NCBI GenBank assembly: GCA_025354165.1
Contig: JANXNI010000052.1
Span: forward strand, 1-64,000
From: Burkholderiales bacterium
Lineage (GTDB): Bacteria; Pseudomonadota; Gammaproteobacteria; Burkholderiales; Casimicrobiaceae
Reading direction: 5' to 3'
Length of the DNA: 64,000 bases
Shown: piece by piece, positions 6,296 through 63,348 of the stretch
Layout of the letters: each line of letters opens with the position of its first letter
Position numbering within the stretch: the stretch's first letter is position 1
The notes under the pieces: generated by a model
What the model was told of the DNA's origin: nothing
Database searches by the model: none
What the model saw: the letters and a program-made list of their open reading frames with translations, nothing else
Program-made: the position numbers and the translations under genes

Positions 6296-6496
6296 TTGTG
6301 AATGCTACGTGGTGCAGAACTGGCAAACATCTTTATCGTGAAAGCACCATCGCATGCGGGATGCAGGGTGTTTTACGGCTAAAGTCGATAAGTGCAGAAA
6401 ACGCGCTTTTCCCCCTATGTAGCGGTCACTTCAATGAAAAGTTTTCGGAGCGGCGACGGTCGCAAACTCAGATTCATCGCTTCTACGGAGCGCACG

Positions 6497-7636
6497 TCAC
6501 TTCATCATGTCCAGATGCTCAAGGCCCGCGAGCATATTGCGGCCTTTCGATTCATGGCCTTCGAGTTTGATCCGCAGGCGCACGTCGTTCACGCTGTCGG
6601 CGTTGCGGAGCGCGTCTTCATAGCTGATGTGCCCCGCCTCGTGCAACTGGAACAACGCCTGATCAAAGGTCTGCATGCCGAGCTCATTGGATTTCTTCAT
6701 GATTTCCTTGATCTCGGTGACTTCGCCTTTGAAGATCATGTCCGCGATCAGCGGCGAGTTCAGCAGCACTTCCACCGCCGGAACACGGCCTTTGCCGTCG
6801 CGTTTCACAATCAGACGTTGTGACACGAAAGAGCGCAGGTTCAAGGACAAATCCATCAAGAGCTGCGCGCGCCGTTCATCGGGGAAGAAGTTGATGATGC
6901 GATCCAGCGCCTGATTGGTGTTGTTTGCGTGCAGCGTGGCAAGGCACAAATGCCCGGTTTCCGCGAAGGCAATCGCGTGATCCATAGCGTCACGATCACG
7001 TATTTCGCCGATGATGATGACGTCCGGCGCTTGTCGCAAACTGTTCCTCAGCGCGACGCCCCAGTTCTCGGTGTCGGTACCGATTTCGCGCTGCGTGATG
7101 ATGCAGTTGCGGTGCTCGTGAACGAACTCAATCGGGTCTTCGATGGAGATGATGTGGCCGCGTGAATTGCGGTTGCGATGATCGATCATCGCGGCCATCG
7201 AGGTTGACTTGCCGCTGCCCGTAGCGCCGACAAAAATCACGAGACCACGCTTCGCCATGACGATATCGCGCAGAATCGGCGGCAACATCAATTCTTCAAA
7301 GCGCGGGATCGTCGTATTGATCGTACGGATCACGATACCTACGCTGTTTTGCTGCATGAAAGCGCTGCAACGGAAGCGCCCGGTGCCCGGCGGATTGATC
7401 GCGAAATTGCATTCGTTCGAGCGTTCGAACTCGGCCGCCTGCTTGTCGTTCATGATCGAACGGGCGAGCGTCAGCGTGTGAATCGGCGTCAGCACCGTTT
7501 TGGAAACGGCGGTGATTTCACCATCAATTTTCAGTGCCGGCGCGAAGCCCGCTGTCAGGAAAAGGTCAGACGCTTTGCGCTGCACCATCATGACGAGCAG
7601 CGAGTTCATGAAGGTGGTGGCTTGTTCGCGTTCCAT
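6497..7636 (-). CDS. pilU: Type IV pilus retraction ATPase accessory PilU
   Basis: A 379-residue GspE/PilT-family ATPase. Visible motifs: Walker A GATGSGKST (about residue 138), the Asp box IEDPIEFVHE, Walker B PDVIIIGEIRDRDAM, and the His box ETGHLCLATLHANN. PilU differs from PilT by its longer C-terminal tail, here ending in KGRNMLAGLEHLDMMK, and by an N-terminus that fits PilU. PilU assists PilT in depolymerising type IV pili. It follows pilT on the same strand with a 27-bp gap, forming a pilTU operon. Confidence 0.93.
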   Translation of the reverse strand: MEREQATTFMNSLLVMMVQRKASDLFLTAGFAPALKIDGEITAVSKTVLTPIHTLTLARSIMNDKQAAEFERSNECNFAINPPGTGRFRCSAFMQQNSVGIVIRTINTTIPRFEELMLPPILRDIVMAKRGLVIFVGATGSGKSTSMAAMIDHRNRNSRGHIISIEDPIEFVHEHRNCIITQREIGTDTENWGVALRNSLRQAPDVIIIGEIRDRDAMDHAIAFAETGHLCLATLHANNTNQALDRIINFFPDERRAQLLMDLSLNLRSFVSQRLIVKRDGKGRVPAVEVLLNSPLIADMIFKGEVTEIKEIMKKSNELGMQTFDQALFQLHEAGHISYEDALRNADSVNDVRLRIKLEGHESKGRNMLAGLEHLDMMK

Positions 7637-10342: not shown

Positions 10343-10346
<4 letters not shown>

Positions 10347-10651
10347 CGCCGTCGACGCGGCGAACCTGGATTTGTGAGGTCAACGGCGGCGTCGACATTG
10401 CACTTTACGCGCAGCCCGGAGCCAAGGCGACTGAAGTCGCAGGAGAGCATGAAGGTGCGCTGAAATTGCGCGTTCGCGCGCCGCCCGTTGATGGCAAAGC
10501 AAACGCTGCGGTGATCGCATTTTTGGCGTTGAAACTGGGCGTTGCCAAGTCGCAGATTGAGCTGACTTCTGGCGATAAAAATCGGAGGAAACGGCTGCAC
10601 GTTGCGGGCGTTTCAGCTGAGTTTGTCCACGAAAAACTTCTTTCAGCTTAA
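10343..10651 (+). CDS. DUF167/YggU-family protein
   Basis: A 102-residue protein with the small DUF167 fold: VDIALYAQPGAKATEVAGEHEGALKLRVRAPPVDGKANAAVIAFLA is the diagnostic run, followed by SGDKNRRKRLHV. Its biochemical role is unknown; structures of homologues are alpha/beta folds with no clear active site. It starts with a GTG overlapping the proC stop (GTGA). Its own stop codon TAA (10649-10651) is supplied by the left arm of a 116-bp palindromic element, so the last residues may differ from relatives. Confidence 0.88.
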
Positions 10652-10759
10652 GGAAGAAAAGCAGACTGCATTGGGGCTGGGTGCTTAAAAGTGTACAAGT
10701 CGACAAATTGTAATATGGGGATGTAGCCCCAGTGCAGACGTGCTTTAAGGAAAAAGCTG
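10644..10759. repeat. 116-bp intergenic palindromic element, copy 1
   Basis: The element is 35 + 46 + 35 bases. Outer arm ends are CAGCTT (10644-10649) and AAGCTG (10754-10759); inner arm ends are CTGCATTGGGGCT (10666-10678) and AGCCCCAGTGCAG (10725-10737), an inverted pair with one mismatch. The exact centre is TCGA within AAGTCGAC. Copies with identical spacing occur at 23421, 57549 and 61996, and a deleted form at 31396. Here it fills most of the gap between the convergent DUF167 and DUF1841 genes and carries the DUF167 stop codon. It could work as a bidirectional terminator or mRNA-stabilising hairpin, or be a non-autonomous mobile element. Confidence 0.88.
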
Positions 10760-10785: not shown

Positions 10786-11223
10786 CTATTGCTGGCTCGG
10801 TAGCCGCTGCCTGAGCAACTGCAAATACAACGCGCCGTCGAGCGCTTGCCCCGTGCGCTGCGACTGCCACAATGTTTCGCCGAGGCATTCCAGAATCTCG
10901 TGTTTGGCCGCGTGTTCGTCGTCGTGCTTCGCGGCCAGTTGCGCATGAATTGCGCGAATCCCGATGGGCTGGTCGATGTCCAGCTGCTCCTGAATCGCGA
11001 GGTGAAATCCGAGATGCAAAAACGGATTGATGTCGCCCGCTTCGGGTCGCCAGTCGGTCGTCACGAATGACTCCGGATTTTGCAACACGCGGTGATATTC
11101 CGGATGCATCGTCAGGATTGCAGCGGTCTTCTCTTCAAGCGGCGACAGCGGATCGCGACGCTGAAATTTCGCCCACGTGTCGATGAAAAATTGTCGCGCC
11201 TGATCGCGTGAGGGATTGAACAT
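10786..11223 (-). CDS. DUF1841 family protein
   Basis: A 145-residue soluble protein opening with MFNPSRDQARQFFIDTWAKF and containing INPFLHLGFHLAIQEQLDIDQP, the hallmarks of DUF1841, a family found mainly in beta- and gammaproteobacteria. The function is unknown; histidines in the HLGFHLAIQEQ and HDDEHAAKHEILECLGETLW segments could bind a metal. It lies 35 bases downstream of nth on the same strand, a pairing conserved in betaproteobacteria, and probably belongs to the rnfB-nth transcript. Confidence 0.85.
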   Translation of the reverse strand: MFNPSRDQARQFFIDTWAKFQRRDPLSPLEEKTAAILTMHPEYHRVLQNPESFVTTDWRPEAGDINPFLHLGFHLAIQEQLDIDQPIGIRAIHAQLAAKHDDEHAAKHEILECLGETLWQSQRTGQALDGALYLQLLRQRLPSQQ

Positions 11224-23420: not shown

Positions 23421-23536
23421 CAGCATTTGTCTGAAACGTCCGCTGCATTGGGGCTAAATCGACAAATTGGCTACAGTCGACTTCTCAAATTTTAGCGATT
23501 CAGCCCCAACGCAGTCGTCGATTGGTGCAAAAGCTA
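23421..23536. repeat. 116-bp intergenic palindromic element, copy 2
   Basis: Same 35 + 46 + 35 layout as the copy at 10644. Inner arm ends CTGCATTGGGGCT (23443-23455) and AGCCCCAACGCAG (23502-23514) are inverted with one mismatch; the exact centre is TCGA in GTCGAC. The left arm begins CAGCATTTGTCTGAAAC and the right arm ends GCAAAAGCTA. It ends 7 bases beyond the ccmI stop, between ccmI and the glnA enhancer, where it could act as ccmI's transcript-end hairpin. Confidence 0.88.
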
Positions 23537-23542
23537 CTCTCG

Positions 23543-24826
23543 CTAATTCGCCTGATCAAGCACCAGCGAAACCACTCCAAACGGCAACTTGAGCGTTGCT
23601 TTGCCGCTCTGCCAATCGCCGGGCTGCGCTGCCGGTTGACCGCTGAGCGACAGACGTGCCTGAATCGCCACCTCTGCGCCCGCTTTGAGGCCCGCGCCGC
23701 CGATCATCGCGTCGGCTGCTGTCAACATGACCGGCTGGTCAATTTGCCCGAGCGAAATTTTTTTTGCGGCCAGTGGCGGGCCACGGTCGACCCCCGCGGC
23801 GCGCACGATCAGGAACACCGCTGCGCTGCCCGGATTCGCCGCCGCGGCTTTAAGCGCGTCGGCACCGAGCTGAAACTTGACGATGGCGAGCACGGCATCG
23901 GACGCCGTGGTCGGCGCGGCTACGGCAACGGCCCTGGTGTCGGTGGTAACGGCGGCAGCGGCTGCCATAGACGGCGCTCCGCCCTGACGCGTCTTGATGT
24001 CGGCCAACGCGTTATCGGCGATCTGTGCGAACCCGGACTTCGGGTCAACCTCTGATTTCGCCAGCGAGAAGGTTTTTTCGGCGGCAACCAGATCGTTTTT
24101 CTGCATTTCGTAAGTGCCGCGCAGTAGTAACGCTTTGGCGTTTTTGCCATCGAGCGCCAGCGCTTTGTTGATGTATTCGAGCGGCTTGCCCTCCATCTTG
24201 CCCTGCGATTTTCCAGCTGCTGCGTCGGCGAAATCGGACCACAGTTCGCTGTCGTCCGGCGTCAGCGCTACGGCTTTTTCATAGTCGTGCATCGCGCCGT
24301 CAAACATACCTACCGAGGCCTTTGCGCGTGCCAGCAAAATCCAGCCTTTAACGTCATTCGGCTCTTTGTTCAGACGCTCTTCCGCGAGTTTGAACAACTC
24401 AGTCATCTGCGAGTCTTGCGCGGTGGCCGCCTGTGGCGGACGCACGGCTTCCGGCACGACGGCGACCGGCATGCCAATCGCTGCGTACCCCACGACGGCG
24501 AGCACTGGCAGCAACACGCCCAAAGCAATCGCCGTGCGTTTATAGCGCGGCGCCGTCGTGTTCATCGCCGCCGAAGGTTGCGCCGATTCCGACAGCACGC
24601 GTGCTTCAAGTTCACGTTCGGCTTCGACGAGACCTGCGTCCGATAGCAGGCCCAGTTTTCGGTCGCGCCGCGCCTCAGAGAGCTCAACGCGTATTGCCTG
24701 AACGTTGGTGTCGACGGTCGCCGCTTTCATTTCCACGCGACGCTTAAGCAGCGGCCGCAAAACGATCCACACGACAACGGCAGTCATGACGGCGAGCAGC
24801 GCGATAAAAACGAGGGAAGGATTCAT
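23543..24826 (-). CDS. ccmI: Cytochrome c maturation protein CcmI
   Basis: The 427-residue protein starts with a membrane helix (FIALLAVMTAVVVWIVLRPLL), then the CcmI N-terminal domain with ELSEARRDRKLGLLSDAGLVEAERELEARVL, a second helix (ALGVLLPVLAVVGYAAIGMP, about residue 97), and a periplasmic part with tetratricopeptide repeats (NKEPNDVKGWILLARAKASVGMFDGAMHDYEKAVAL and following). The C-terminal 100 residues form the extra domain of proteobacterial CcmI. It holds apocytochrome c for haem ligation. The start overlaps the ccmH stop. Confidence 0.88.
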   Translation of the reverse strand: MNPSLVFIALLAVMTAVVVWIVLRPLLKRRVEMKAATVDTNVQAIRVELSEARRDRKLGLLSDAGLVEAERELEARVLSESAQPSAAMNTTAPRYKRTAIALGVLLPVLAVVGYAAIGMPVAVVPEAVRPPQAATAQDSQMTELFKLAEERLNKEPNDVKGWILLARAKASVGMFDGAMHDYEKAVALTPDDSELWSDFADAAAGKSQGKMEGKPLEYINKALALDGKNAKALLLRGTYEMQKNDLVAAEKTFSLAKSEVDPKSGFAQIADNALADIKTRQGGAPSMAAAAAVTTDTRAVAVAAPTTASDAVLAIVKFQLGADALKAAAANPGSAAVFLIVRAAGVDRGPPLAAKKISLGQIDQPVMLTAADAMIGGAGLKAGAEVAIQARLSLSGQPAAQPGDWQSGKATLKLPFGVVSLVLDQAN

Positions 24827-27392: not shown

Positions 27393-27451
27393 GGGGAACC
27401 GAAAAGAGCGCTTACTGCGATGAAGTGATTTTAGGCTGTGGGCGCTTGGGC

Positions 27452-27525
27452 CTTGTAGGAGTGGCTTGACGCGACCCGCCTTCACTGCATATTCACGTTG
27501 GGTCGCGGCAAGCCGCTCCTACAAG
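27452..27525. repeat. REP-like inverted repeat doublet upstream of ccmF
   Basis: Arms at 27452-27477 and 27500-27525 are inverted 26-mers with 24 matches and a 22-base spacer. The core GTAGGAGCGGCTTGCCGCGA is the same as in the doublet at 1-54. It lies in the 161-bp divergent gap between ccmF and the DHA2 exporter, so it must be close to both promoters. Confidence 0.82.
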
Positions 27526-27553
27526 AACCGCCACTCCCGATAAACTCGAGGCC

Positions 27554-31089: not shown

Positions 31090-31395
31090 GTCATTTCCTT
31101 TATGTGATCTGTGGACAGTGGATGGTTTTTGTCACCGTAACCGATGAAAAAACCGTTCAAACTGACCCCCGACGTTTGTTGTTTGCGCTTCGTTGTCGGT
31201 CCGATGAATGTTCATTGGGCCGGGCGCGAAGCGTACGTGTCGTGGAGCAGAGCCAGAGATTATAGCCCGTGCAGTAGACGCTGTATATGTTCGGGAAGGC
31301 AACCCGATGATCGTCTAGCGATTGGCATTAGTAACTTTTCTGCCAAACGTCCATTTTATAAGGGTTAAACGCCTGAATTAATAAAAGTCGAGATA

Positions 31396-31447
31396 CAGCT
31401 TTTTGTCACTATAGGCCCTGATCAAAGGCGATTTCAGACAAAAGCTG
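31396..31447. repeat. 52-bp deletion derivative of the 116-bp palindromic element
   Basis: Outer ends are CAGCTTTTTGTC (31396-31407) and GACAAAAGCTG (31437-31447). The inverse of its right arm (CAGCTTTTGTCTGAAATCGCC) matches the left arm of the copy at 61996 at 18 of 21 positions, so it is the same family with its interior lost. It is the only copy not beside a gene's 3' end, lying between the rpsF and ssrA promoters. Confidence 0.7.
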
Positions 31448-31541: not shown

Positions 31542-31932
31542 GGGCCCGACCTGGTTTCGACGGGAGTTCTGAGGTGCGCTTGGGGCATGTCGAGGGGTAG
31601 CTCCTCGTAAATCCGCTGCAACGCAATCTAATTGCAAACGATAGCTTCTACGGCGAAAGCCGTCTCGCAGCCTAATTAAACACTAGGTCACGAGTGTTGC
31701 AGCAGGGGACGTGGATCCTGCGCCGAGCCGGGCAACTGGTAGAGCAGCAACATCATTTTCCCACGGGTAGGATGCGCGAATGTCTGCGGCGCACATCCGA
31801 AATCTAGCGGGCTGGTTAGCTGCAAGGGTGTTCATGCTCGTGTGGCTGGCAAGATCAAATCACTGAACTAAACATGTAGTCCTGACCATTGATGACTTTC
31901 GGACGCGGGTTCAATTCCCGCCGGGTCCACCA
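31542..31932 (+). ncRNA. ssrA: Transfer-messenger RNA
   Basis: tmRNA rescues stalled ribosomes. The 5' end GGGCCCGACCTGGTTTCGACG pairs with the 3' acceptor GGGTCC before ACCA, and the 3' domain has the T-arm TTTCGGACGCGGGTTCAATT. This is a one-piece tmRNA of about 391 bases in standard order. The tag frame runs 31634-31672 with stop TAA at 31673, encoding ANDSFYGESRLAA, 13 residues rather than the usual 10 or so. Inside it, ACGGC-GAAA-GCCGT (31650-31663) forms a perfect hairpin with a GNRA loop, an unusual feature. Confidence 0.95.
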
Positions 31933-40280: not shown

Positions 40281-40418
40281 TCAGATGTTGCGCGGCATTG
40301 CAGGCAGCACACATACGATGAAGGCGTGCAATTCCGTCATGTAGTTCTGAAGGATCTGCTTTGAGCCCTCGTCGGCGACTTCGCAATCGGTGGAAATGAG
40401 TTCCGGTTTGAACTGCAT
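40281..40418 (-). pseudogene. C-terminal fragment of an NAD(P)H-dependent FMN reductase
   Basis: The last 45 codons (MQFKPELISTDCEVADEGSK then QILQNYMTELHAFIVCVLPA) match the C-terminus of the intact reductase encoded at 51508-52080 at about three residues in four, including LQNYMTELHAFI and the MPRN ending. No other part of the gene is present upstream. It is a remnant left by deletion or recombination in the CMD-DoxX unit. The gap 40067-40470 holds this fragment, the 15-base repeats and the mrp promoter region, and no intact gene. Confidence 0.75.
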
Positions 40419-51507: not shown

Positions 51508-52080
51508 TCAGGTGTTGCGCGGCATCACGGTCAGCACGCGCGCGATGAAGGCATGCAGTTCCGTCATGTAGTTCTGCAGGAACTGCTTCGTACCCTCGTC
51601 GGTGACATCGCCGTCTGCGGTGATGAGCCCCGGTTTGAACTGGATATAAGCCTCGACCGTGTTCATCAGCGGTGAGTTGCAGAAGCACAGCACGCCCCGC
51701 AGGCTCTGCTGCGCCACCGCCGTGCCGATCGCGCCGGGCGAAGTGCCGATCACGCCCGACGGTTTGCGCGCAAAGGAATTCTTGCCCCACGGTCGGCTGG
51801 CCCAGTCGATGGCGTTCTTCAGTCCTCCGGGGATCGAGCGGTTGTATTCGGGCGTCACGAAGAGCACGGCGTCGACGTCAGCTATCGCCTGCTTCAGGGC
51901 GCGCGCCACGGGCGGGTAGTCGGCGTCGTGGTCCGAGCTGTACAGCGGCAAATCTTTGATGGGAATTTCGCTCAGCACCAACTCGGGCGGAGCGAGTCGA
52001 ACCAGGGCCTTGGCAAGCTGGCGGTTGATTGACGTCGAGGCGAGGCTGCCGACGAAATATCCGACTTTGTACGTGGTCAT
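51508..52080 (-). CDS. NAD(P)H-dependent FMN reductase
   Basis: A 190-residue flavodoxin-fold reductase. VGYFVGSLASTSINRQLAKAL is the FMN-phosphate loop, VDAVLFVTPEYNRSIPGGLKNAIDWASRP is the family signature, and KPSGVIGTSPGAIGTAVAQQSLRGVL follows. It could reduce quinones, azo compounds or FMN. Its C-terminal 45 residues are duplicated as a remnant at 40281-40418. It is the last gene of a minus-strand cluster with a Ppx-like protein, an esterase, a dioxygenase and a DoxX protein. The plus-strand gap before it (51294-51507) shows no gene. Confidence 0.9.
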   Translation of the reverse strand: MTTYKVGYFVGSLASTSINRQLAKALVRLAPPELVLSEIPIKDLPLYSSDHDADYPPVARALKQAIADVDAVLFVTPEYNRSIPGGLKNAIDWASRPWGKNSFARKPSGVIGTSPGAIGTAVAQQSLRGVLCFCNSPLMNTVEAYIQFKPGLITADGDVTDEGTKQFLQNYMTELHAFIARVLTVMPRNT

Positions 52081-55795: not shown

Positions 55796-55972
55796 ATGCA
55801 ATCAGACTTTAAAGGCAACAAGCAGCACTTGCCGAGCAAACCCTGCGCGGTGTGCGGTCGCACGATGACGTGGCGTAAGGCGTGGGCAAAAAACTGGGAC
55901 GACGTGCGTTATTGCTCGGACGCCTGCCGCACCCGGAAGAACACGCATCCCGGAACGACGCATGGCATCTGA
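55796..55972 (+). CDS. DUF2256 zinc-ribbon-like small protein
   Basis: A 58-residue protein with the DUF2256 pattern [37 protein letters not shown], two CxxC-type cysteine pairs that probably bind zinc. It overlaps the start of the photolyase gene by 11 bases, and DUF2256 genes are regularly next to this photolyase/cryptochrome family. Its role is unknown. The upstream frame to 55622 is not conserved. Confidence 0.88.
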
Positions 55973-57551
55973 GTCGACGCCACGCGTCGGCGTGCGCAAT
56001 CTCGTGATCGTGTTGGGCGATCAGCTTGACCAGCAGTCATCCGCGTTCGACGGTTTCGACCCAGCGCTTGACGCCGTGTGGATGGCCGAAGTCGATGAGG
56101 AGTCCACGCACGTCTGGTCGGCGAAGCAGCGCATTGCGGTGTTTCTGAGCGCCATGCGGCACTTTGCGGCGCACGTGAGGGCACGTGGTTTCACCGTGCG
56201 TTACACGCGGCTGGAAACGCAGCAGGAAACCGCGACTGCTGGTTCAACGCTCGCCGGGGAGCTTGCCCGCAGCATCAATCACCTCAAACCGTCCGCTCTG
56301 GTGATAACCGCGCCGGGCGACTGGCGCGTTCTGCAGGCGTTGCGTGCGGTGGCGCAGCGCGAAGGTTTGCCGTTTGATCTGCGCGATGATCGCCACTTTT
56401 TCAGCACCGTGCGCGACTTCGCGGTGCACGCAAAAGGCCGCAAGCAACTGCGGCTTGAATACTGGTATCGCGAATTGAGGATGAAGTACGCGATCCTGCT
56501 GGAGGACGACGGCAAAACGCCGCTTGGTGGGCGCTGGAATTTTGATGCGGACAATCGCGAGTCTTTCGGAAAACAGGGCCCGACGGACGTTCCGGCACCA
56601 ACGCGCATGCCGCCGGACGAAATCACCACCGAGGTCATGCAACTCGTCAATACGCGATTCGTCGATCATCCGGGGCAGCTTGAGTCGTTCGGCTGGCCGG
56701 TTACGCGCGAAGAGGCGCTGCTCTCGCTGAACGATTTCGTCCGAGAACGGCTGCCGCTATTCGGGCAGTTTGAAGACGCCATGTGGGCGGGCGAAGTCTG
56801 GCTTTATCACTCGCATTTGAGCGCCGCGCTCAATCTTAAGCTGCTCAATCCTCGAGAGGTGGTGTGTGCCGCTGAATTGGCCTATCGCGAAGGCCGCGCT
56901 CCGCTCGCCGCAGTCGAAGGTTTTGTGCGGCAAATTCTCGGCTGGCGCGAGTATGTGCGTGGCATTTACTGGACGCAGATGCCCGACTATCTCGAAGGCA
57001 ACGCGCTCAACGCGCAGGCCGATCTGCCCGCGTTTTACTGGACTGGCAACACCGACATGGCCTGCCTGAAGGACGCGATCAGCCAGACGCTCAAGCACGG
57101 CTACGCGCATCACATTCAGCGGCTCATGGTGACGGGTCTTTACGCGCTGCTGCTCGGGGTGCGCCCGCAGGCCGTGCACGAGTGGTATCTGAGCGTGTAT
57201 GTCGACGCCGTGGAATGGGTTGAGCTGCCGAATACGCTCGGCATGAGCCAGTACGGCGACGGCGGACTTATGGCCAGCAAGCCTTATGTGGCGAGTGGCA
57301 GATACATCCAGCGCATGAGCAATTACTGTCAGGGTTGTCGCTACGATCCCGCCGTGTCGACCGGCCCCAAAGCCTGCCCATACACCACGCTGTACTGGGA
57401 CTTTCTGATTCGTCACGAGCCGAAGCTCAAGAAAAATCCGCGTATGGGCATGCAGCTGAAAAACCTTGCGCGACTCGACACCGCCGCGCGCGACGCCATC
57501 ACCACCCAGGCAGGTCAGCATCGTGCGGCAGTGACTTCTGCAGTCTTATAG
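55962..57551 (+). CDS. Fe-S photolyase/cryptochrome family protein
   Basis: A 529-residue member of the (6-4) photolyase-like PhrB/CryB family: the N-terminal Rossmann domain opens [22 protein letters not shown], the FAD-binding helical domain contains [22 protein letters not shown] and [17 protein letters not shown], and [28 protein letters not shown] near residues 455-485 provides [4Fe-4S] cysteines. Such proteins repair UV-induced (6-4) lesions or sense blue light. The stop codon TAG is the first three bases of a 116-bp palindromic element. Confidence 0.92.
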
Positions 57552-57664
57552 CTTTTCTTTGAAAACCTTGCTGCATGGGGGCTAGAAGAGTATTTGTGTG
57601 TTGGTCGAGTATTTGCCAATTACGAGCTTAGCCCCTATTCAGTGGTCGTTACAGATAAAAGCTG
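57549..57664. repeat. 116-bp intergenic palindromic element, copy 3
   Basis: Same 35 + 46 + 35 layout. Outer ends TAGCTTTT (57549-57556) and AAAAGCTG (57657-57664); inner ends CTGCATGGGGGCT (57571-57583) and AGCCCCTATTCAG (57630-57642); exact centre TCGA. The first three bases are the photolyase stop codon. The remainder of the gap to 57859 (195 bp) shows no gene or clear signal apart from the promoter region of the aminotransferase. Confidence 0.88.
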
Positions 57665-57859
57665 ATGTGGTCTCTAGGTGCTTTCAACGCTCTTGGTGTC
57701 GCGGCAGGGAGCGATGGATTTGCGGCGGCCTTTGATCGAGGCTGACGCGGGTCGAATAAATCGGTGGAGCCAAGTCCGGGCACTACGTACTGAAGAACGT
57801 ATGAGCGAGGCGGATCGCGAGCGTTCGAGCATCTACCTCCGTTGCCATAGACTGCCCGC

Positions 57860-59089: not shown

Positions 59090-60541
59090 ATGTTCGAACA
59101 AGCCTTCAAAAATATCGACGACGTTCTCTGGAAAGAAGCAGGCTGCACCACCGAGCTGGATTACACCGAGCAAACTTCCTGGCTCCTCTTCCTCAAATAT
59201 CTTGACGGGCTGGAGCAGGACAAGGCGACCGAGGCGGAGCTTGAGGGTAAGAAGTACACGCACATCATCGCTGCACCGTATCGCTGGGATGTGTGGGCTG
59301 CGCCGAAGGGCGCGGACGGCAAGCTCGATCACAACAAAGCGCTCACTGGCGACGACCTGCGCGAATTCGTCGACCGCACGCTCTTCCCTTTCCTGCAAGG
59401 TTTCAAGCAAAAAGCCAGCGGCCCGAACACGCTTGAATACAAAATCGGCGAAATCTTCGGCGAGATCAAAAACAAGATCGTCAGCGGCTACAACCTGCGC
59501 GAAATCATCGACCATATCGACGCGTTGCGCTTTCGCTCACAGACCGAAAAGCACGAGCTCTCGCACCTGTACGAAGCCAAAATCAAGAACATGGGCAACG
59601 CGGGCAGGAACGGCGGCGAGTACTACACGCCGCGCCCGCTGATCCGCGCGATGGTGCAGGTCACCGCGCCAACAATCGGCGAAACGATTTACGACGGCGC
59701 CTGCGGTTCGGCGGGCTTTTTGTGCGAATCGTATGATTACCTGCGCCCGCATGCGACCAAGGCCGCCGACCTGAAAACCCTGCAAGAACGCACGTTTTAC
59801 GGCAAAGAGAAAAAGTCCCTCGCCTACGTCATCGCGATCATGAACATGATCCTGCACGGCATCGAAGCACCGAATATTACGCACACCAACACGCTCGCCG
59901 AAAACCTGGCCGACGTGCAGGAAAAAGACCGCTTCGACGTCATCCTCGCGAACCCGCCGTTCGGTGGCAAAGAGCGGAAGGAAGTGCAGCAAAACTTCAA
60001 CATCAAGACGGCAGAAACCGCGTTTCTGTTCATGCAGCACTTCATCAAAATGCTGCGCGCCGGGGGCCGCGCAGCAGTGGTGATCAAGAACACCTTCCTC
60101 TCGAACACCGACAACGCCTCGGTCAGCTTGCGCAAGCTTTTGCTCGAAAGCTGCAACCTGCACACCGTGCTCGACTGCCCCGGCGGCACCTTCCTCGGCG
60201 CGGGCGTCAAAACCGTCGTGCTCTTTTTCGAGAAAGGCGCACCGACCCGAAAGGTTTGGTACTACCAGCTCGAACCCGGCCGCAACATGGGCAAAACCAA
60301 CCCGCTCAACGACGCCGACCTCGCCCAATTCATCACGCTGCAAAAGACGTTTGCTGATTCCGGCAAAAGCTGGAGCGTGGACGCAACGAACATCGACGCC
60401 ACCACGTTCGATCTGTCAGTCAAGAACCCCGACGGCGGTGAAATCATCACCCACCGCAGCCCGCAAGACATCATGGACGAAATCGCCGCGCTGGATGCGG
60501 AGAGTGCTGAGGTTTTGAAATCCATTGCGGAGATGCTTTGA
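59090..60541 (+). CDS. hsdM: Type I restriction-modification methyltransferase HsdM
   Basis: A 483-residue N6-adenine methyltransferase. The N-terminal HsdM_N helical region (residues 1-130, with SWLLFLKYLDGLEQDK) is followed by the catalytic domain with SAM motif YDGACGSAGFLCESY and the catalytic NPPF in ILANPPFGGKERKE, then KNTFLSNTDNASVSLRKLLLES. It methylates adenine at the site chosen by HsdS. It overlaps hsdS by 4 bases (TTGA). Confidence 0.95.
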   Translation: MFEQAFKNIDDVLWKEAGCTTELDYTEQTSWLLFLKYLDGLEQDKATEAELEGKKYTHIIAAPYRWDVWAAPKGADGKLDHNKALTGDDLREFVDRTLFPFLQGFKQKASGPNTLEYKIGEIFGEIKNKIVSGYNLREIIDHIDALRFRSQTEKHELSHLYEAKIKNMGNAGRNGGEYYTPRPLIRAMVQVTAPTIGETIYDGACGSAGFLCESYDYLRPHATKAADLKTLQERTFYGKEKKSLAYVIAIMNMILHGIEAPNITHTNTLAENLADVQEKDRFDVILANPPFGGKERKEVQQNFNIKTAETAFLFMQHFIKMLRAGGRAAVVIKNTFLSNTDNASVSLRKLLLESCNLHTVLDCPGGTFLGAGVKTVVLFFEKGAPTRKVWYYQLEPGRNMGKTNPLNDADLAQFITLQKTFADSGKSWSVDATNIDATTFDLSVKNPDGGEIITHRSPQDIMDEIAALDAESAEVLKSIAEML

Positions 60542-61902
60542 AGTCGACTTGGGGCGTGAAGACGCTCAGTGAAGTCGCGAAAATCGGTTACGGCTACACG
60601 GAAAGCGCGTCAAGCGAAGCTATCGGTCCGCGCTTCCTTCGAATTACAGACATCCAGAATGATTCGGTCGATTGGGAGCGTGTTCCCTATTGCAAGATAG
60701 TTGCTTCGGAGATTTCGCGTTTTCGATTGCAGAGCGGAGATATTGTCTTTGCGCGCACCGGTGCGACTACGGGAAAGAGCTTCCTCGTGCGCGATCCGCC
60801 CGATGCGGTTTTCGCATCCTATCTTATTCGGCTACGAATACTTGAGAACACGCTGACTCCGGAATTCCTTGCGCTTTTTTTTCAAACCGCCGAATACTGG
60901 GACTCGATAGAAGCGGGTTCAACGGGTAGCGCCCAAGGCGGAGTCAATGCGACCAAACTCGGCGCTTTGTCAGTTCCAATACCGCCGATGTTCGAACAGC
61001 AGCGAATCGTCGGCATCCTCGACGAAGCGTTTGACGGCATCGCCACCGCCAAAGCCAACGCCGAAAAGAACCTCCAAAACGCCCGCGCCCTGTTCGAAAG
61101 CCACCTGCAAGCCGTTTTCACGCAAAGCGGCGAGATAGTCACACCGAGGCGCAAAACTGGGAGTCAGCCAGTACGATTTGCCACAACCGATGAAGCGGAC
61201 CGCGTGAATGCCGGACGAGCGACGAAAACCGGGGGCCGAGACGCTTCTCTTCGCCATATTCCCGGCGAACGGTCACTTTGTGTCGGTATGCCGTCCACTG
61301 GAACTCGCGCTGGCTGGCACTGGGAGGCGTTGTCGGATATTGCCAGACTGGAATCAGGACACACCCCTAGCCGTCGGCACCCGGAGTACTGGGGCGGGAC
61401 AGTTCCGTGGATTGGCATACAAGACGCTAGGGCACATCATGGCGACGTCATCGACGAAACCATGCAGACGACGAACGAGCTTGGCATTAGTAATTCGTCT
61501 GCGAGAGTGCTCCCGATCAACACCGTTTGCCTGTCTAGAACGGCCTCGGTTGGTTATGTCGTCGTTATGGGACGCCCAATGGCGACAAGTCAGGACTTCG
61601 TGAACTGGGTTTGCAGCGACGCTTTGCTACCGGAATTCCTAAAGTATGTGTTTCTTGCCGAAGGGCGCCAAGGCTTGCTGCGCTACGCAAGCGGTTCGGT
61701 GCATCAAACCATTTACTTTCCCGAAGCGAAGGGTTTTCATGTGTGTCTTCCCGACGCGAAAGAGCAGCGCCGAATCGTTGAGCAATGCGACGCGCTACGC
61801 ACCGAAACCCAACGCCTCGAATCCCTCTACCAGCAAAAACTCACCGCGCTCGACGCGCTGAAAAAGTCGTTGTTGCATCAGGCGTTCAGCGGCGCGCTGT
61901 GA
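60538..61902 (+). CDS. hsdS: Type I specificity subunit HsdS
   Basis: A 454-residue protein with two target-recognition domains (about residues 1-155 and 255-405) separated by and followed by conserved helical spacers, EQQRIVGILDEAFDGIATAKANAEKNLQNARALFESHLQAVF and EQRRIVEQCDALRTETQRLESLYQQKLTALDALKKSLLHQAF. The spacers set the distance between the two half-sites of the DNA target, which cannot be read from sequence. The TTG start overlaps hsdM. The first recognition domain is visibly AT-richer than its surroundings, as in exchangeable hsdS domains. Confidence 0.93.
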   Translation: MKSTWGVKTLSEVAKIGYGYTESASSEAIGPRFLRITDIQNDSVDWERVPYCKIVASEISRFRLQSGDIVFARTGATTGKSFLVRDPPDAVFASYLIRLRILENTLTPEFLALFFQTAEYWDSIEAGSTGSAQGGVNATKLGALSVPIPPMFEQQRIVGILDEAFDGIATAKANAEKNLQNARALFESHLQAVFTQSGEIVTPRRKTGSQPVRFATTDEADRVNAGRATKTGGRDASLRHIPGERSLCVGMPSTGTRAGWHWEALSDIARLESGHTPSRRHPEYWGGTVPWIGIQDARAHHGDVIDETMQTTNELGISNSSARVLPINTVCLSRTASVGYVVVMGRPMATSQDFVNWVCSDALLPEFLKYVFLAEGRQGLLRYASGSVHQTIYFPEAKGFHVCLPDAKEQRRIVEQCDALRTETQRLESLYQQKLTALDALKKSLLHQAFSGAL

Positions 61903-61995: not shown

Positions 61996-62111
61996 CAGCT
62001 TTTGCCTGAAATCGTTATTGTTGTTGGGCTAGTGCGACGTTTAGGCGATTATCGGTAATTGCACTTTTTTGAATCTAGCCCAACTCGAATGGGGTTTTCA
62101 GTAAAAAGCTG
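61996..62111. repeat. 116-bp intergenic palindromic element, copy 4
   Basis: Same 35 + 46 + 35 layout. Outer ends CAGCTTTT (61996-62003) and AAAAGCTG (62104-62111); inner ends TTGGGCT (62024-62030) and AGCCCAA (62077-62083). The centre is TCGG rather than TCGA. The arms match at about 25 of 35 positions. It lies 93 bases after the hsdS stop, between hsdS and fic; the rest of the gap holds the fic operators. Confidence 0.85.
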
Positions 62112-62214: not shown

Positions 62215-62265
62215 AGCTAAACGCTGTTTTCTTATCACTTGGCAGCCGATTTTTCGGATCAGACA

Positions 62266-63348
62266 ATGAACGCGCTGGACATTCCCACGAGCGAGCAGCT
62301 TGACGTAAAGCCGGTTTGGCAGGCACTGGCCGAGGCACATCGTCATCTGGCGGAGCTGAAAGGTTTGTGCGAGTCGCTGCCGAACAGCGCGTTGTTGATC
62401 GATACGCTTTCGCTTCAAGAAGCCAAAGACAGCTCGGAAATTGAAAACATCATCACCACGCATGATGAGCTGTACGCGTACGAGCCCGAGAGCGCGTCCG
62501 CGTCTGGCAGCGCCGCAAAAGAAGTGCAAAACTATGTCGCCGCGCTGCGCGTGGGGTTTGCCGATGTGCAAGAGAGCGGGCTGATTCGGTTGTCCACGAT
62601 TTTGGCGGTGCAGGAAGCCGTTGAATTAAACGACGCGGGGTTACGCAAGGTGCCGGGCACGGTGCTGCGCAATCAGAGCACGAACGAGGTGGTGTACGAG
62701 CCACCGCAGGATGCGGTGTTGATCGAACAGTTGATGTCGGCGCTGGTGAATTTCATCCATGCCGATCCCGACTTTGACGGGCTTGATCCGCTGCTGCGCA
62801 TGGCGATCACGCATCATCAGTTCGAGTCCATTCATCCGTTCTACGACGGTAACGGGCGAACGGGGCGGATTCTCAATTTGCTGATGTTGCAACGCGATGG
62901 GTTGCTCAATATGCCTGTGCTGTATTTAAGCCGCTACATCACGCAGACCAAGGCGCAGTATTACCAGCTGCTGCAATCTACGCGCGTCTCGGGCGACTGG
63001 GTGCCGTGGTGTGTGTACGTGCTCAGGGGCGTGGCGGCGACGGCAAAAAGCGAGATCGGGCTGATCAAAAACATGCGCGATTTGATGCAGCAGACGAAGC
63101 ACACACTACGTGACACGCTGCCCAAAATCTATAGTCAGGAGCTGATGAACAATCTGTTCCGCTATCCGTATACCAAGATCGAATTTGTAGAAAGGGAGCT
63201 AGGCGTCTCGCGAATTACAGCCGCTAAATATCTGGACGCACTGACCGAACACGGATTCGTTGAGAAACAAAAAAAGGGGCGCACCAACTTTTATATCAAT
63301 CGACCGTTGTTCAATTTACTGACGCAAATTCGCCTTGACAATGAATGA
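62266..63348 (+). CDS. Fic-domain protein with winged-helix C-terminus
   Basis: A 360-residue Fic AMP-transferase-family protein. The active motif is HPFYDGNGRTGR (H190), matching HxFxxGNGRxxR. The N-terminal inhibitory helix contains the class II motif SxxxEN (S56-E60-N61 in DSSEIEN), so it is self-inhibited. A C-terminal winged helix (KIEFVERELGVSRITAAKYLDALTEHGFVEKQKKGRTNF) follows from about residue 304. It probably AMPylates a protein, and the winged helix may bind the palindromes upstream. It sits between hsdS and hsdR, a known Fic location in type I loci; the 3' end overlaps hsdR by 8 bases. A TTG at 62239 is an alternative start. Confidence 0.92.
   Translation: MNALDIPTSEQLDVKPVWQALAEAHRHLAELKGLCESLPNSALLIDTLSLQEAKDSSEIENIITTHDELYAYEPESASASGSAAKEVQNYVAALRVGFADVQESGLIRLSTILAVQEAVELNDAGLRKVPGTVLRNQSTNEVVYEPPQDAVLIEQLMSALVNFIHADPDFDGLDPLLRMAITHHQFESIHPFYDGNGRTGRILNLLMLQRDGLLNMPVLYLSRYITQTKAQYYQLLQSTRVSGDWVPWCVYVLRGVAATAKSEIGLIKNMRDLMQQTKHTLRDTLPKIYSQELMNNLFRYPYTKIEFVERELGVSRITAAKYLDALTEHGFVEKQKKGRTNFYINRPLFNLLTQIRLDNE

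Follow-up and report, generated by a model that had tools for sequence, protein, structure and literature searches.

Nucleosome positioning sequences carry a helically phased alternation of A+T and G+C about a dyad, and Correia-type elements are units of about 100-170 bp with inverted-repeat ends and many intergenic copies, a build also ascribed to the bacterial MITEs known as RU. A study of Escherichia coli gyrase describes a motif of 130 bp that is symmetric about a 4-bp stagger and has a G+C period of 10.75 bp; it suggests indirect readout, sees no rise of motif scores behind genes, and cites BIME-2 as reported to bind gyrase (PMC6379681). With Mu DNA, according to PMC11626157, a 156-bp wrapped loop was seen with gyrase, and both sources liken gyrase sites to nucleosome positioning sequences. 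REP sequences and REPINs are described as repeats of 20-40 bp tagged GTAG or CGTC (PMC3733652). The element described here shares with the strong gyrase sites (phage Mu SGS, pSC101, pBR322) a similar length, two-fold symmetry about a 4-bp centre, an alternation of A+T and G+C about every turn, and a position behind a gene (in the Mu sequence record, cutting occurs 20 bp past gene G). Unlike them, it is far more conserved, is present in many copies per genome, has outer ends CAGCTTTT, and has periodic flanks extending beyond 66 bp; we regard it as a candidate gyrase target. No description of it was found in the literature on repeat families, periodicity, and gyrase, which was searched without the genus name.

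The window analyzed here is a stretch of DNA of 64 kb from a genome labelled G000; G001, G005, G012, and similar labels denote sister species. The preliminary description had reported four 116-bp palindromic copies in it, and these align gap-free across 116 columns with the ends that it gave; the inner GGGGCT/AGCCC-like blocks and the TCGA centre, which is TCGG in the fourth copy, are likewise seen in the alignment. Copy 1 (10644-10759, 116 bp; TCGA at 10700-10703) precedes the stop of a minus-strand DUF1841 gene (10786-11223), the open reading frame to its left (10343-10651, plus strand) being a weak gene call, and its ortholog in G001 measures 118 bp. Copy 2 (23421-23536, 116 bp; TCGA at 23477-23480) lies 6 bp past the stop of a CcmH/CycH-like cytochrome c biogenesis gene (23543-24826, minus strand) and has a 116-bp ortholog in G001. 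A photolyase-related gene (55962-57551, plus strand) runs into the first three bases of copy 3 (57549-57664, 116 bp; TCGA at 57605-57608); at the matching place in the G005, G012, and G002 stretches, which share the right-hand gene alone, the arm model finds no copy. A non-coding stretch after copy 3 (57696-57804) shows 76% identity to a G001 stretch (L219:2662-2769) at a different location, near the ortholog of copy 4. Copy 4 (61996-62111, 116 bp; TCGG at 62052-62055) sits between an hsdS-like gene (60538-61902, plus strand) and a Fic-domain gene (62239-63348, plus strand), and the same gene as at copy 4 precedes copies in G005 (L218:6059-6176) and G001 (L219:1493-1608). The hsdS-like gene, whose neighbours are an hsdM-like gene and the Fic-domain gene, contains short stretches 98% and 95% identical in DNA to G005 and G001, the rest being unmatched.

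A fifth copy, absent from the preliminary description, was found at 31332-31447 (116 bp; TCGA at 31388-31391), 94 bp upstream of the tmRNA gene (31542-31932, plus strand); in G012, too, a copy lies about 120 bp upstream of the tmRNA. A weak sixth copy, decayed or diverged, occupies 6328-6444 (117 bp by best fit), 52 bp past the stop of a minus-strand gene (6497-7636). When the window was scanned with a matrix built from the four copies, these scored 113-122 bits themselves, the fifth copy scored 58.6 bits on the plus and 64.2 bits on the minus strand, and the sixth place (matched at 6329-6444) 14.8; the next independent place had -3.9, and all remaining positive positions overlap copies. With leave-one-out matrices the four copies ranked 4, 4, 4, and 5 on the plus strand, the higher places presumably being other copies. 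A two-arm model found six places in the window versus none in a 400-kb control of reversed (uncomplemented) G005 sequence. Palindrome strength by itself is not distinctive: two other 116-bp stretches of the window reach 33 of 58 complementary positions, and copy 1 has 30 of 58. A strong palindromic stretch at 27431-27546 (33 of 58) overlaps a repeat at 27454-27479, which we take to resemble the REP sequences of other bacteria.

The anatomy of the element was derived from 85 copies of G000, all ungapped matches above 60 bits, three lower scorers being left out. Their consensus forms an almost complete palindrome around TCGA; reading inward, it presents the outer CAGCTTTT, then TGAAA, a CC/TTGCAT region, and GGGGCT. 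The ends are CAGCTTTT and AAAAGCTG, with A/T outside. The total information amounts to about 100 bits, and the mean pairwise identity is 57%, with some columns near random. The preliminary description held the middle to be less conserved than the arms, which is the case, but the middle does not drift freely: its TCGA is near-invariant and A/T tracts recur about 11-15 and 3-6 bp from the dyad, the near-random columns lying between them. The strict 116-bp length that it proposed largely applies to the window's own genome, in which a covariance model with paired arms recognized no fewer than 110 separate places, 106 of these 110 having exactly the full length of the model; this count is a lower bound, derived from scoring 150 of 1131 first-look candidates. 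Four places of G000 have a different spacer, so that the 85-copy set understates length variation, and across the genus the length ranges from 115 to 118 bp; the spacer between 40-bp arms is 36-38 in 21 G005 copies and 36 in 75 of 89 G001 copies. Copies in sister species mostly keep the ends, A-tracts, and centre, whereas the inner arm motif changes with the species (GGGGCT, GGGCT, GGCGGTCGTT-like, ATGACAGGCTT). A second arm type, with GGCGGTC/GACGG-like motifs, was noted in G008, G003, and G013 (L037, L049, L039, L051, L052); its ends are unchanged, its centre is similar, and local inverted repeats are visible by eye inside each arm.

The many further places that the covariance model finds in the genome bear out the preliminary description, which had named a lack of further copies as grounds for refutation. 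Matches at E<=1e-4 were obtained in 15 of 40 genomes, including the window's own, and all 15 belong to the window's genus, of which 17 members were searched. In a survey of 399 genomes of the order, with stricter filters than the 40-genome search, five matched at E<=1e-6, all from the same genus, one of 158 genera sampled. Within the genus, G014 has 84 matches, G009 three, and G010 none at E<=1e-4. Among the named relatives retrieved with a protein encoded nearby, betaproteobacteria come first.

None of the 85 copies lies inside a called gene, although the end of a gene reaches as much as 28 bp into some of them. Genes were called by a simple codon-usage script, and 120 of the 136 background gaps came from G005; on this basis, 26 of 81 copies occupy convergent gaps compared with 11 of 136 background gaps (p=1e-5), and the deficit in divergent gaps (12 of 81 copies versus 32 of 136) is non-significant. 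Gene boundaries within 30 bp of a copy are found on the stop side in 62 of 95 cases and on the start side in 14 of 67, the median distance being 21 bp to a stop and 92 bp to a start. Where the neighbouring genes run in tandem, the preference for the stop side is only slight (28 of 43, p=0.049). The gyrA locus was noticed through copies in G000, G001, and G006, the other species being fetched regardless of copies. In 7 of 14 genomes (G000, G001, G004, G005, G006, G012, G013), a clear element lies +19 to +107 from the gyrA stop; that of G000, directly 3' of gyrA, is at G000:C79:25233-25352 (L167/L327). The G013 copy is of the other arm type, and those of the remaining six genomes are of the usual one. 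In G008 a copy is found at +576, G002, G007, and G011 give weak matches, and no element was seen at the gyrA locus of G003, G009, and G010.

Persistence was assessed with 26 copies of G000 that have a counterpart at the corresponding site of G001, the G001 set consisting mostly of full-length matches plus 20 places of other length. Both sides of these pairs were fetched for holding a copy, so they give no occupancy rate. In 19 of the 26, the place of the G001 copy deviates by at most 2 bp from that predicted by the flanks, and 23 of the 26 are 116/116 bp while 1032 of 2668 bases differ (39%). In low-information columns orthologs are 0.38 identical, as compared with 0.28 for unrelated pairs (20 pairs); six G000-G005 orthologs are alike no more than random pairs. 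The element is real, abundant in its genus, old, and kept in place.

The preliminary description allowed for a common mobile ancestor, and it might be imagined that the copies are what is left of a transposon family, MITE or REPIN-like, that spread anciently and now drifts. Like MITEs and like REP, BIME, and REPIN sequences, the element is a dispersed extragenic palindrome with inverted-repeat ends and more than 100 intergenic copies, and Y1 transposase domains are present in 14 of 15 genomes of the genus. By eye, a copy was unseen in other species at L026, L138, L139, L140, L170, L176, and window position 57549, all of them places where one flanking gene is shared and synteny is broken or orthology unsure. 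One copy (L328:8842-8958) resides on a contig of 12.5 kb that is labelled viral and has matches to repressor and primosomal proteins, and phages or prophages may carry the element. However, the 85 copies show no target duplication of 4-12 bp (match 0.22-0.28), and the excess match at 2-3 bp outside the ends follows the flanking A/T pair. Unlike MITEs, the element has old orthologs in place, the 26 in G001, and covariation of the neighbour type (see below); unlike REP, BIME, and REPIN sequences, it has a near-fixed length of 116 bp and strongly diverged copies, with some columns near random. At the foot of the 85 copies, the GTAG or CGTC tag as defined in PMC3733652 is absent. The number of Y1 domains is unlinked to that of elements, G010 having three domains and no element match at E<=1e-4 and G009 no domain and three matches. 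Drift by itself also fails to explain the held length or the phased flanks. We consider a transposon remnant improbable: a mobile ancestor is conceivable, but the element is not evidently mobile now.

Palindromes outside genes tend to be classed as hairpins or as defunct transposons; a half-swap test separates symmetry from pairing. A hairpin or cruciform predicts matched changes in both halves of a copy, and the test reveals none, which disfavours RNA pairing: the 85 G000 copies have 2774 complementary positions versus 2748 +/- 26 after swapping (p=0.16), and 65 G001 copies have 2087 versus 2068 +/- 24 (p=0.23), even though the copies were found by a model that rewards pairing. The covariation in arm pairs that the preliminary description proposed to look for is therefore missing, and with it the selection on RNA shape that it had considered. 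Instead, mutual information among 170 half-elements, given as raw values to which the genome's own dinucleotide bias may contribute, is concentrated in adjacent columns, to which seven of the eight strongest pairs and 22 of the strongest 40 belong. At columns 45-46, in the A-tract, complementary steps (AT/TA) occur at 0.22 where 0.50 would be expected, and the two bases tend to be both A or both T. No dyad-symmetric pair is among the top 40 of the full-length list; some distant column pairs stand out too, lower in the lists. Such neighbour-type covariation suggests the trace expected of a protein that reads DNA shape.

The same data bear on the idea that the element serves at gene ends as an RNA hairpin, or a transcription terminator, working in both directions. 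The location at 3' ends would suit it, each strand of the four window copies has a better predicted fold than shuffled sequence (z -3.0 to -5.8), and by eye the matching stretch behind gyrA in G007 and G011 resembles hairpins followed by T-runs. Against this stand the missing left-right covariation in 85 and 65 copies, the overall length that is mostly held, the absence of a conserved T-run outside either end of the 85 copies, and an Rfam search of the whole window at the gathering threshold, in which the tmRNA was the only hit and the element copies matched no family. We consider such a hairpin or terminator quite unlikely. A structured RNA was rejected, since the folding energies are good but the covariation is absent, and so were hairpins within each arm, which are visible by eye in G005, G006, G008, and other copies but do not stand out in the G000 mutual information. 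Several copies of G014, G011, G008, and G006 have long complementary arms, most of them picked by the pairing-rewarding model, and a site acting as double-stranded DNA leaves these unexplained.

The DNA on both sides of the element, genes included, bears a helical phase locked to it. In G000, where bases outside the element and its A/T pair are hardly conserved, G+C content at 61-120 bp from the dyad follows a wave with a period of 11.00 and an amplitude of 0.083, attained by 0 of 500 jitter nulls; of 400 pseudo-dyad sets none reached 0.085, the mean being 0.016. G001 gives the same period, 11.00, and an amplitude of 0.078 (0 of 300 nulls), and 177 flanks of all its copies give 11.25 and 0.081, some loci of the two species being orthologous, which makes the tests partly dependent. 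A similar wave is seen whether one takes the 78 flanks that have a gene boundary no more than 30 bp away or the 70 that are non-coding. It is fainter at 99-158 bp (0 of 500 nulls in G000, 0 of 300 in G001) and, in G000, weaker still farther out (15 of 500 nulls at 121-180 bp, 2 of 500 at 181-240 bp). At 61-120 bp it is non-significant in G005 (matched or exceeded by 169 of 300 nulls), in the set of other species (42 of 300), and in the pooled set (49 of 300). The core has a period of 10.0 and the flanks one of 11.0-11.3; in the arms (14-48 bp), the best-fitting G+C period is 7.1, with 10.0 and 10.75 equal to each other in fit.

Symmetry without pairing, constraint of the neighbour type, flank phase in two species, preference for 3' ends, and persistence are all observed, and they led us to conclude that the element is very probably a nucleoprotein site in double-stranded DNA. 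Selection on DNA shape, one of the possibilities raised in the preliminary description, gains support from the covariation of neighbouring bases, the phased flanks, and a length mostly held despite sequence drift. In the mechanism that we infer, a C2-symmetric protein complex would bend or wrap the element, centred on TCGA, with A-tracts and G+C blocks alternating about every helical turn and the alternation continuing in the flanks (about 11 bp) for at least 60 bp on each side. The element, kept mostly just downstream of genes, would then manage or pin supercoils at the ends of transcription units; given a nucleoprotein site, such a role appears somewhat favoured. The helical phasing could be kept by selection or by the bound complex biasing mutation. 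For the complete picture, i.e. a two-fold-symmetric site in double-stranded DNA that a protein bends or wraps, that probably handles supercoils at gene ends, and for which gyrase is the leading candidate, we see the chances as about even, judged from sequence comparison.

The most likely candidate binder would be DNA gyrase, which is A2B2, makes a 4-bp staggered cut, and wraps about 130 bp, or the element may be a gyrase-loading site. Gyrase is favoured because the four-base symmetry, the size, the phased A+T and G+C, and the gene-end location fit. It is doubted because (i) about 100 bits of conservation far exceed the published degenerate preference of gyrase, (ii) the element is confined to one genus while gyrase is universal, (iii) the number of GyrA repeats is ordinary and the core match to the Mu SGS failed, and (iv) the flank period of 11.0-11.3 and the core period of 10.0 differ from 10.75. 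The assignment to gyrase is accordingly a tentative one, if a serious one. The Mu SGS was rejected as a yardstick, the core profile being unmatched, with the best position near the cut ranking 411 of 10181; a flank-only profile at the expected Mu dyad gives z=2.37, and phases near the cut are similar (2.43 at -8, 2.01 at +12). An unusual GyrA was discarded as an explanation too, as G000 has six C-terminal repeats and matching genomes of other genera have 6-8 (compared by number, not by sequence). G014 yields no GyrA repeat match despite its 84 element matches, GyrA perhaps missing from the assembly.

Strong conservation, one-genus range, ordinary GyrA, and the failed Mu match make a dedicated architectural protein nearly as likely. 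Such a genus-specific protein, nucleoid-associated or a domesticated transposase, might wrap the element while the arms co-evolve with its specificity; this would agree with an inner arm motif that varies among species between ends and around a centre that do not change, and with the fact that G013 has the other arm type at the gyrA locus where six genomes have the usual one. No candidate emerged from the proteins searched, which comprised GyrA repeats and Y1 transposase domains only, and the two-fold 4-bp centre and the 3'-end location are equally expected from gyrase. We regard this protein as possible, though on the doubtful side. Whichever protein binds, the supposed wrapping invites comparison with nucleosome positioning sequences, whose phased alternation the element shares; it differs in being bacterial and in having sequence-specific ends and a sequence-specific centre. 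It might, as a speculative extension, be a positioning element of that sort, its many gene-end sites fixing the place of a DNA-wrapping particle with a footprint of at least 240 bp that extends into ordinary flanks, both coding and non-coding. If a wrapping complex does occupy these addresses, they would offer a route to how bacteria position supercoil-handling machinery at gene ends.

Apart from the element, the window contains two 138-nt stretches, at 40281-40418 and 51508-51645, that are 80% identical to each other.
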